A stretch of DNA of 64,000 nucleotides, taken from the NCBI RefSeq assembly GCF_000337495.1, contig NZ_AOIS01000028.1, forward strand, positions 8,740 through 72,739, read 5' to 3'. The position numbers and the translations under genes were made by a program. Numbering within the stretch: position 1 is the first letter of the stretch; every line of letters begins with the position of its first letter. The notes under the pieces are model-generated. The model saw only the letters and a program-made list of their open reading frames with translations. It was not told the origin of the DNA and made no database searches. The stretch is from Haloterrigena salina JCM 13891. Lineage in GTDB: Archaea; Halobacteriota; Halobacteria; Halobacteriales; Natrialbaceae. Positions 7,153-43,807 of the stretch are shown in pieces.

Positions 7153-7635
7153 GTGGAGGCGATCGCCGTGATCGACGAGACCGAGGAACTGCTCGAGGAG
7201 ATCGGGTTCGACGCCGAGACGAGCGTGTTGACACACCGCCAGGCGCAGGTGCTCGCGCTCCGCGAACGCGGCGTCTCGCAGGCCGACATCGCCGACGCGC
7301 TTGGCACCTCGCGGGCGAACGTCTCCTCGATCGAGTCGAGCGCGCGCGAGAACTTGGCGAAGGCTCGCGAGACGGTGGCCTTCGCGGAGGCGTTGCGGGC
7401 GCCGGTCCGCGTTCGGGTGCCGGCCGGGACCGACCTCTACGACGTTCCGCAGTTGGTCTACGACGCCTGCGACGAGCAGGGCGTCAAGGTCGATCACACC
7501 GCGCCGGACCTGATGAAGGTCGTCAGCGACGCCGCGGGGTCGGCGGTGTCGGGACGCGAGGTGTCGACGCCGCTGATCGTCGGCGTCACCTCCGAAGGGA
7601 TGGTGCGGGTCCGCCACCAGGACCGCCGGGAGTGA
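7153..7635 (+). CDS. Tfx-family DNA-binding transcriptional regulator
   Basis: 160 residues starting at GTG 7153; a GTG at 7168 is also possible. Residues of about 24-75 form the Tfx helix-turn-helix: LTHRQAQVLALRERGVSQAD, then IADALGTSRANVSSIESSAR, which places a recognition helix around TSRANVSSIE. The C-terminal half (VRVRVPAGTDLYDVPQLVYD) matches the usual Tfx ligand or dimerisation domain. Tfx was first described in Methanothermobacter as an activator of a molybdenum formylmethanofuran dehydrogenase operon; the target here is unknown. A 26-base near-perfect tandem repeat begins at its last codons and includes the stop. The palindrome cluster upstream could be an autoregulatory site (inference). 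Confidence 0.88.
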   Translation: MEAIAVIDETEELLEEIGFDAETSVLTHRQAQVLALRERGVSQADIADALGTSRANVSSIESSARENLAKARETVAFAEALRAPVRVRVPAGTDLYDVPQLVYDACDEQGVKVDHTAPDLMKVVSDAAGSAVSGREVSTPLIVGVTSEGMVRVRHQDRRE

Positions 7636-7676
7636 TCATCGTTCGACGCTGCCGGGAGTGATCGCCGTTTGACGCC
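7625..7676 (+). repeat. Tandem duplication of 26 bases spanning a stop codon
   Basis: Unit 1 (7625-7650) and unit 2 (7651-7676) both begin GCCGGGAGTGATC and differ at four positions. Unit 1 contains the TGA of the Tfx gene; unit 2 repeats the same CGGGAGTGA context just downstream. Confidence 0.75.
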
Positions 7677-7752
7677 GCGTCGCGCGACTCCGAATTGCAG
7701 GCAGCGTCAGCAGTCCGAAGACCGAAAGGCGACGACGGCATACGCGAGGGTG

Positions 7753-41319: not shown

Positions 41320-43620
41320 TCACGACGGGATGGAGACGGCCAACCGCAACCCGCCCGCGTCGCTTTCTTCGACCGCGACCGACCAGCCGTGGGCCTCGAC
41401 GACCTCGGCGACGATCGCCAGCCCGAAGCCGGTTCCCTCGGCGTCCGTACTGTACCCCCACTCGAGGACGTGGTCGCGTTCACCGGGCGGGATTCCGGGC
41501 CCGTCGTCGGCGATCGCGAACCCCTCGAGGGTTGACTCGACCGTGACGGTCACGGTCCCCCCGACGCGTTCGCCGCGGTTCGTCGTCTCTTCGTCGAGAT
41601 CCTCCTGGGTCCCCTGGGAGCCGGGGCTCGCGGAGCCGTGCTCCACAGCGTCCTCCTGAGTTTGCGACGGAGGGCTCGTCGAACCGTGTTCGACGGCGTC
41701 CTCGGGAGCATCGGCGACCGAGGGCTCGGAAGACGCGGTGTGTCTTCCGTCGTCCTGACGAGCGTGCGAGACAGGGCTCGTCGAACCGTGCTCCACGGTG
41801 TTACGGAACACGTTCTCGAAGAGGACCCGAAGCCGCTCCTCGTCGCCGTCGACCGTCGGCAGCGATCCGTCACACACCACCTCGAGGTCGCCCTCGACCG
41901 TTCGGTCGGCGCGCTCGACGACGGCGGCGAGGTCGACCGGCTCGGTCTCGGTCAACCGCCGGCCGCTCCGAGCTAAGGTCAGGACGTTCTCGACAAGCTC
42001 GTCCATTCGGGTGAGGGCCCACTCGAGCTCTTGGACGTGGCGGTCGATCTCGTCGTCGCCGTCGATCCGGCCCGCGAGGAGTTCGAGGTGGCCCGTCGCG
42101 AGCGTCAACGGGTTTCGGAGGTCGTGTGAAACCGTACTGGCGAAGGCCTCGAGTCGTTCGTTCTGGCGCTCGAGTTCGCGGCCGTGCTCCGCGAGTTCGC
42201 CCTCGCGCTCGGCGCGGTCGAGGGCGGCTTCAGCGTTGGCCGCGAGGATCCGCGCCAGCGTCAGCGCTTCCGGATCGAAGTCGTTAGTCTCGAGCGAACT
42301 CACGATGAAGACCCCGTGATCGCCCAGCGGAACGTGGGCCTCGCTGCGGATCGGCGTCTCGGGGTTGCGAACGTTCGGCGCCTGCCGGACGTCGCCGTGG
42401 ACGATCGCCTCGCCGGCCTCGTAGGCGTCCCAGGCGATCCCGCCGCCGGGTTCGATGTTCGACGGGATCCCGTCGAACAGTTCGAGCACGCGGTCGCTCA
42501 TGGCGACGGGAACGAGTCCGCCCTGCTCCTCGTCGGTCGCGTCCGGCGAACCGTCGCCGACGGCCGGCTCGCTCTCGCCGGGGGCGCGGGCCGCCGATCG
42601 CGTCAGCACGTTCGGCTCGTACAGGTGAACGGAGTTGAGATCGAGATCGAGCGCGTCGGCGGCGATTTCGGTCACGATGCGGGCGATCTCGTCGGTCTCG
42701 GTCGCCGCCATTAGCCGGCGTGTCCCGTCGTGGAGCCGTCTGATCCGCCGCTCGCGCTTCGTCCGCTCGGAGACGTCGCGGATCACGCCGACGCTCCCCG
42801 TCAGCGTTCCGTCGTCGACCAGCGGCGCGACGTTGACTTCGGCGTCGCGGGTCGTTCCGTCGGCCACTTCGACGGTCAGGTCGACGGTCTTCCACGTCCG
42901 ACCGTCGATCGCCCGGACCGCCTCGAGCGTCGAGCGGATGCGGCCGGCGTCTTCGTCGGCGACGAAGTCGTCCACCGGCCGGCCGAGGAGTTCGTCGCGC
43001 GTCGTCTCGAACGCGTCGGCCATGGCTTCGTTGGCCATCTCGATGCGGTCGGACTCGTCGAGCACGTACATCGAGTCCCCGACCGTTTCCACGACCGTTC
43101 GGTACCGCTCGAGGTCCCGCTCGCGTTCGCACTCTCGGTTCGGGTCCCGCGGCGCCGCCCGCTGGTCCGTCCGAGCGCGGCCCGCTCGGTTCGCGTCCGG
43201 TCCGCCCACGGTTTGCAACTGCTCGCGGAGTCGCTCGACCGAATCAGTCCGTCCCTTCGGAACGTAGCCCGAGAAGCCGGCCGTGATCGCCTCGCTGGCG
43301 AGCGTCTCGCTTCCGTCGGCGGTGTAGAGGAGAAACGGGGCAGTCGCCAGTCCGTCGGCTCGCAGCGAATCGTACAGCGCGAGCGCGTCCGTCTCCGGAT
43401 CGTCGAGGCGGTATTCGGTGACGACGCAGGCGTACGCGCTCGACCCGTCCGCGAGCGCGTCGCGGAGGGCGCCCGCGGTCGCTACCTCCTCGAGTTCGAT
43501 CGCGGCGTCGGCCGCGCCGGCCGCGAGGTCGCGCGACAGCCGTCGTCGAGCCGTCTCGTCGGGATCGACGTACAGCACGGCTTTCGATAGCATCGAACGT
43601 GTGCGTCCGGCGTCGACCAT
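41320..43620 (-). CDS. Pseudo-receiver/PAS/GAF sensor histidine kinase with triplicated N-box segment
   Basis: 766 residues from ATG 43620; ATGs at 43650 and 43593 are alternatives, and minus-strand CTTATC at 43651-43656 fits a TATA for 43620. Order: receiver-like domain (KAVLYVDPDETARRR) whose phospho-acceptor position is Glu (CVVTEYRLDD) with the Lys kept (YVPKGRTD); PAS with PAC (RYRTVVETVGDSMYVLDES...VGVIRDVSERT); GAF (TRRLMAATETDEIARIVTEI); then the H-box STVSHDLRNPLTLATGHLEL. The ATPase has its N-box (FENVFRNTVEHGSTSP) followed by about 70 extra residues with two more VEHGS(T/A)SP copies, then VGGTVTVTVESTLEGFAIAD, G1 DDGPGIPP and G2 GTGFGLAIV. Likely cytoplasmic, with no membrane segment; signal and partner unknown. 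Confidence 0.9.
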   Translation of the reverse strand: MVDAGRTRSMLSKAVLYVDPDETARRRLSRDLAAGAADAAIELEEVATAGALRDALADGSSAYACVVTEYRLDDPETDALALYDSLRADGLATAPFLLYTADGSETLASEAITAGFSGYVPKGRTDSVERLREQLQTVGGPDANRAGRARTDQRAAPRDPNRECERERDLERYRTVVETVGDSMYVLDESDRIEMANEAMADAFETTRDELLGRPVDDFVADEDAGRIRSTLEAVRAIDGRTWKTVDLTVEVADGTTRDAEVNVAPLVDDGTLTGSVGVIRDVSERTKRERRIRRLHDGTRRLMAATETDEIARIVTEIAADALDLDLNSVHLYEPNVLTRSAARAPGESEPAVGDGSPDATDEEQGGLVPVAMSDRVLELFDGIPSNIEPGGGIAWDAYEAGEAIVHGDVRQAPNVRNPETPIRSEAHVPLGDHGVFIVSSLETNDFDPEALTLARILAANAEAALDRAEREGELAEHGRELERQNERLEAFASTVSHDLRNPLTLATGHLELLAGRIDGDDEIDRHVQELEWALTRMDELVENVLTLARSGRRLTETEPVDLAAVVERADRTVEGDLEVVCDGSLPTVDGDEERLRVLFENVFRNTVEHGSTSPVSHARQDDGRHTASSEPSVADAPEDAVEHGSTSPPSQTQEDAVEHGSASPGSQGTQEDLDEETTNRGERVGGTVTVTVESTLEGFAIADDGPGIPPGERDHVLEWGYSTDAEGTGFGLAIVAEVVEAHGWSVAVEESDAGGLRLAVSIPS
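41618..41800 (-). repeat. Three imperfect copies of an N-box coding segment
   Basis: Within the sensor kinase gene, the coding segment for VEHGSTSP recurs near 41770-41800, 41671-41703 and 41618-41660 (third copy VEHGSASP). Spacers are Gln/Asp/Ser-rich. The copies are similar at the DNA level, consistent with local duplication. Confidence 0.7.
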
Positions 43621-43807
43621 CTCGTTGCGTCCGAACAGTAACGGGGCCACGATAAGCGATTCGGCCGGCGCGCGCGGACTCGCTCACCCGATCGCCGAAC
43701 TGTCGACCTCGAGACGGAGGGCGCAGACGGACGCTGATCCGTGAAACGCCAGAGCGGATCGCGCCGGAAATGAGATAAAATATGGGTAATTTCCGTCGAA
43801 ACGGCAC

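Follow-up and report, generated by a model that had tools for sequence, protein, structure and literature searches.

Why should the ATPase domain of a sensor kinase carry what looks like several copies of a piece of its own ATP-binding motif? The question is raised by a gene in the window analysed here (the whole stretch of 64,000 nucleotides from Haloterrigena salina JCM 13891), in which the minus-strand ORF at 41320-43650 encodes a histidine kinase of 776 aa. A degenerate receiver-like N-terminus is followed by PAS, GAF, HisKA and HATPase_c domains (the last four being Pfam matches), and the protein contains FENVFRNTVEHGSTSPVSHARQDDGRHTASSEPSVADAPEDAVEHGSTSPPSQTQEDAVEHGSASPGSQ... The combination of HisKA and HATPase_c with N, G1 and G2 boxes identifies it as a histidine kinase, and residues H20, N124, N128, D226, G228, G230, G252 and G254 are invariant in an alignment with 28 relatives. 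From the N-box (FENVFRN) to the G1 box (DDGPG, 41494-41508 on the minus strand) the sequence reads TVEHGSTSPVSHARQDDGRHTASSEPSVADAPEDAVEHGSTSPPSQTQEDAVEHGSASPGSQ. VEHGS(T/A)SP occurs in it three times, with starts spaced by 102 bp and then 48 bp, in agreement with a preliminary description that had located three copies at 41618-41800.

That description took the repeats for extra copies of a catalytic motif that could lengthen the ATP lid. The Asn pair of the N-box (invariant N124 and N128) occurs only once, however, in the sole complete N-box helix (41788-41841, minus strand; residues 115-132 of the model), which ends FENVFRNTVEH, and what recurs is VEHG alone, the last four residues of the motif. 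When the HisKA-HATPase part of the kinase was modelled with AlphaFold2 from an alignment of 28 sequences, a core of high confidence was obtained that includes the N-box helix and a strand at residues 211-217. Everything between these two was modelled as coil, and pLDDT is below 50 for the greater part of it (residues 135-205 in the numbering of the modelled piece). In those kinases of this genome that lack the insert, only about 0-2 residues are found at this position and VEHG or IEHG leads straight into the strand, as in NSIEHGREDVTIRVG and NAIEHGGADVTVAVG. Because of this direct passage and the low-pLDDT coil, the array is best regarded as a disordered loop insert of about 75 residues, the whole extra segment of some 75 codons lying at 41560-41784 (minus strand), after the N-box helix and before the beta strand that follows. 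The ATP lid of this fold is found between the G1 and G2 boxes, whereas the insert, predicted to be disordered, precedes the strand that leads to G1, so that it is not the lid that is lengthened. On this model, the encoded peptide is probably a tolerated disordered loop that contributes little to catalysis.

The repeats are not a product of chance, as most of the approximately 54 HATPase_c loci of this genome are devoid of the motif, yet DNA related to the array is found in four of its kinase genes (the window kinase and three others) and copies are present in same-genus orthologs. The array is absent from the TRF repeat report, which can be attributed to the divergence of its three copies; elsewhere in the window, TRF reports a 26-bp direct repeat containing TGATCA at 7621-7677. 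At the DNA level the repeat unit consists of two inverted repeats: stem A, made of the VEHGST codons (pattern GTn GAr CAy GGn TCn AC), and stem B, located in the spacer (for example CCTGAC...GTCAGG, CCTGCT...AGCAGG, CCTCCT...AGGAGG, CCTCGG...CCGAGG, TTCAGAACC...GGTTCTGAA or GTCGGCC...GGCCGAC). Read along the minus strand, the array of the window begins with an imperfect stem A (GTGGAGCACGGTTCGAC, 41780-41796) and a stem B with 5/6 pairs (CCTGTC...GTCAGG, 41754-41775). The following stem A slot is occupied by a different palindrome with 8-bp arms (CGGAAGACACACCGCGTCTTCCG, 41727-41749), which encodes DGRHTASSE rather than AVEHGSTS. Then come a second stem B with perfect 6-bp arms (CCTCGG...CCGAGG, 41700-41723), a second stem A with perfect arms (CGTCGAACACGGTTCGACG, 41677-41695), a third stem B with 5/6 pairs (CCTCCG...AGGAGG, 41652-41673) and a third stem A with one mismatch (GTGGAGCACGGCTCCGC, 41630-41646), the register of the first and third stem B being taken from the sequence and the covariation analysis described below. 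An antisense ORF spans the array on the plus strand (41638-41976); that this frame is open probably follows from the palindromic, GC-rich make-up of the units and is no argument for a gene.

Units in the host's family have periods of 48 bp (76 cases), 45 bp (28) or 51 bp (22), so that the reading frame is kept in all 126, a multiple of three not being demanded by the regular expression used. The class-wide list contains a few frame-breaking units, for instance in genomes G177 and G408. Each unit encodes 15-17 residues (16 in the commonest class), most of them polar, with hydrophobic residues nearly absent apart from the Val of VEHG and Ala. The best-conserved positions are VEHGST and the next Ser, although VEHGS itself is imposed by the search. 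Where a single unit is present, VEHG codons flank it on both sides, an arrangement that resembles the target-site duplication of MITE or REP-type mobile elements, which have terminal inverted repeats and depend on a transposase.

Judging from the aligned units, the complementarity of both stems is shown to be preserved by double changes, even by those that change amino acids. In a set of 117 distinct 48-bp units, Watson-Crick pairing holds for 93% of the variable pairs in stem A (41% and 51% when shuffled) and for 94, 84 and 87% at those pairs of stem B that vary most (48, 32 and 36% when shuffled). None of 2000 shuffles matched the observed pairing in either stem, tests that ignore the kinship of the sequences, a concern merely lessened by the use of distinct units and of a control without insert. 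The 45-bp class covaries in a similar way. For the control we used the third codon positions of Glu and Gly in VEHG, which form a pair within stem A: these are complementary in 31% of N-boxes without insert (n = 111; 29% expected, P = 0.32), as opposed to 91% of the native N-boxes of insert-bearing genes (n = 103; 50% expected, 0/10000 shuffles) and 78% of later VEHG copies (49% expected). Since N-boxes without insert pair no more than expected, the pairing is a property of the element and not of the kinase motif.

Covariation is synonymous in stem A and non-synonymous in stem B. Residue 9 of the 48-bp unit thus covaries with residues 13-14, D occurring with RQ (20/28), A with QQ (12/20), P with QE (18/23) and R with PE, HE or RE; these covarying residues of the spacer are those encoded by the complementary arms. 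In the window kinase and several of its paralogs one stem A is replaced by the DGRHTASSE palindrome, and other haloarchaea carry GGAAGCGAAAACGCTTCC or GGAGGCGAGAACGCCTCC at that position. At the replaced slot the palindrome persists despite the changed peptide.

Arrays with at least two copies are present in 48/125 genomes of the family and in 174/391 Halobacteria genomes, representing 50 of 86 genera. A spacer-specific pattern was also scanned over one genome per species in 84,980 bacterial and archaeal species, and among the matches listed all are haloarchaeal except for one in a short ORF of a Deltaproteobacteria MAG, which looks like chance. Of about 100 loci of the family whose full sequence was read, almost every one is a kinase whose array occupies exactly this position; as many as 8 VEHG copies are found, with further, decayed copies after them. 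Divergent kinase subfamilies are also among the recipients (e.g. NLVENAVEHG in L308). Orthologs of the window kinase in four species of the same genus carry 3 (G025), 4 (G024), 1 (G027) and 1 (G026) copies at respectively 96, 88, 87 and 76% identity over the aligned N-terminal 600 residues, two of the three copies in G025 having decayed to VKHG and VEHD. An origin of the copies at the DNA level, with copy number differing among relatives (1-4 in these orthologs, up to 8 in another kinase), is the part of the preliminary interpretation that holds up; the catalytic-motif copies and the longer ATP lid do not survive.

When one exact spacer pattern was searched, no viral contig matched and one plasmid record did, within a kinase gene that is not a strain-level ortholog. 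An array-bearing kinase (L348) is located on a 987-kb plasmid of Natrinema thermotolerans A29 (CP031304.1, 407525-413611), where it adjoins annotated genes for an RNA ligase and an RNA ligase partner; from this location, large replicons could carry units between strains. No description of the unit was found in the literature searched, most subscription journals being outside its coverage.

Spreading within genomes is shown by the spacers, which are 83% identical between different kinases of one genome and 69% between genomes (0/2000 permutations). No comparable difference is seen in the adjoining 48 nt of upstream kinase sequence, with 68.4% within and 67.8% between genomes. By this comparison, units are shown to resemble each other among the kinases of a genome independently of their flanks. 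The unit is moreover not confined to kinases. In Natrinema, a gene whose product has a weak, below-cut-off match to HTH_32 has no unit in most orthologs, one 48-bp unit in G064 and two in G075; this is a clean empty/filled site, with the unit in frame, in a helix-turn-helix-like gene unrelated to kinases. A Rieske-like gene of five sister species of the window's genus (L242-L246) constitutes a probable second such site, being empty in G023 and filled in the four others by an in-frame unit of the 45-bp type, decayed to differing degrees, just before VEAWINRC. These non-kinase insertions concern 2 of about 100 family loci. With kinases receiving nearly every insertion, the spread could be due for the most part to homologous exchange from one kinase to another. 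A search of 391 genomes for perfect stems A in which the codon two before Val has a middle base other than A returned none, but it is blind to the HTH-like and Rieske-like cases (which have GAC there) and is not evidence against other insertions. At another locus (L195, G072:C3:3178518-3178573), a 166-residue ORF has a PAS-like start joined directly to the array and the HATPase domain, HisKA and the remainder of the N-box being absent. As the junction falls at the border of the array, it gives a hint that arrays may serve as joints in recombination.

Considering these observations together, we think it likely that the array is an in-frame palindromic repeat element, with a unit of 45, 48 or 51 bp comprising two stem-loops, that is copied to new sites and expands in tandem. 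Covarying stems in a transcribed region are also a classic sign of RNA structure, and the stems could in principle be selected as hairpins in kinase messages, for translation pausing, mRNA stability or regulatory structure; the arrays of several relatives (L127, L129 and L173) do fold better than their synonymous resamples (z -2.4 to -4.4; DNA energy parameters). We nevertheless find this unlikely. Mismatches in the stem B of 48-bp units are A-C in 34 cases and G-U in 8, contrary to the wobble tolerance expected of RNA, and with 7 G-U and 2 A-C in the 45-bp class there is no consistent mRNA signature overall. Kinases carry anywhere between 0 and 8 copies, unrelated genes hold the unit too, and none of the four loci searched matched an Rfam model at gathering score, as a structured RNA family should. 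The 243-nt insert of the window folds ordinarily when compared with synonymous shuffling (z -1.5) or resampling (z -0.5), and in L179, an array of 8 units, folding is poorer than in the resamples (z +1.6), so the case for palindromes is built on covariation among relatives.

Slippage may have a part in growing arrays, neighbouring units being near-identical in the 8 copies of Natrialba swarupiae and in N. mahii as compared with its N. thermotolerans ortholog. It is nonetheless improbable that a kinase segment which happens to be palindromic was simply duplicated in tandem, without mobility. Such a process leaves unexplained the compensatory changes in the stems, the likeness of spacers across the kinases of a genome without likeness of their flanks, and the units in HTH-like and Rieske-like genes, and tandem duplication alone is already insufficient. 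Still less credible is protein-level selection of VEHGSTSP repeats for an effect on kinase activity, the tuning that the preliminary description had suggested. The insert does adjoin the ATP-binding helix, is in frame in all family units, and has VEHGST and the next Ser as its most conserved positions (VEHGS, again, through the search itself). It is, however, predicted to be disordered and outside the ATP lid, the covariation of its spacer residues is that imposed by the DNA stem, and VEHGST can give way to peptides of the DGRHTASSE or GSENASE type as long as the palindrome is kept. As for an assembly error, the genome of the window is a draft of 71 contigs, but the three copies have diverged from one another and comparable arrays occupy the same place in independent genomes, which makes this explanation barely conceivable.

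If the array is indeed a palindromic element, its unit would reach a new site through recombination over short tracts or through template switching, the target resembling GCCG(T/A)CGA(G/A), which corresponds to the N-box codons for A-V-E-H. Once landed, it could expand in tandem through slippage or unequal recombination, with a near-neutral effect on the kinase. The stems, for their part, might be held perfect by template switching, in which one arm serves as template for the other and the two end up as reverse complements. Where inverted repeats undergo template switching, compensatory double changes, clusters of non-synonymous changes and inverted loops are known to arise (PMC8794818; PMC8604942). 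The replacement palindrome of the G025 ortholog has a right half (GGTGTGTCTTCCG) that exactly matches the reverse complement of the left half in the window, the two palindromes differing by four clustered substitutions in genes that are otherwise about 96% identical at the protein level. Loops between the same arms are also found in both orientations (GCA/TGC, GAA/TTC, GAC/GTC), where a handful of reverse-complement pairs, some of them from sequences that overlap, compare with 2 reversed and 0 complemented pairs; the pooled class-wide set test for loop inversion is not significant (P = 0.11). Template switching as keeper of the stems fits the half-inversion in G025, the two-way loops and the lack of a consistent G-U preference among mismatches, all of which is no more than suggestive.

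At the level of sequence comparison, then, this is shown to be a widespread in-frame double-palindrome repeat with covarying stems, which spreads within genomes and has at least one clean insertion outside kinases. More tentatively, it may be a minimal mobile DNA unit of 15-17 codons with two stem-loops that lands at the N-box codons, where the protein tolerates it, throughout the class, has palindromes upheld at the DNA level strongly enough to override the amino-acid sequence and possibly acts as a recombination joint reshuffling the front and back halves of kinases; we hold this larger proposal to be rather doubtful for the present. The locus offers a clear natural case where some residues of a conserved enzyme appear to be set by the upkeep of a DNA palindrome and not by what the protein does; the same codons in insert-free kinases provide a built-in control, and the origin and upkeep of coding palindromes become testable in genetically tractable haloarchaea. 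It also serves as a warning that apparent repeated motifs, covarying residues and positive selection in haloarchaeal kinases may stem from a DNA element.

Several known systems share features with this repeat. Inverted repeats homogenised by template switching (PMC8794818; PMC8604942) are alike in that the simultaneous compensatory changes, non-synonymous clusters and loop inversion they predict are seen between the window and its G025 ortholog, but they reflect a mutational mechanism acting at scattered single inverted repeats and not a dispersed element. The coding palindromes of nematomorph mitochondria (PMC6649704) likewise form stems within functional coding sequence while the protein still works; they are long (up to 284 bp), fitted to conserved parts of proteins, and do not constitute a repeated, spreading unit. 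PARCEL repeats come closer, being tandem, in frame, endowed with dyad symmetry in the DNA and thought to move within genomes. They are, however, 25-residue amphipathic repeat domains with conserved, periodic hydrophobic residues in ORFs mostly without an assigned function, whereas the haloarchaeal unit places within a conserved enzyme 15-17 residues that are mostly polar and predicted to be disordered. The Rickettsia palindromic elements (RPE), described by Ogata et al. and summarised in PMC10969869, are short palindromic repeats that lie in frame within protein-coding genes and add a peptide to the product, all of which the haloarchaeal unit does as well. By the same account, RPE are about 150 bp long and occur in many unrelated genes, in contrast to a double-hairpin unit of 45-51 bp that forms tandem arrays, is almost restricted to one codon position of histidine kinases and was found only in Halobacteria; the likeness is one of style. 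In style the haloarchaeal unit sits beside both RPE and PARCEL, but as their defining size, target or peptide features do not apply to it, it is filed under neither.
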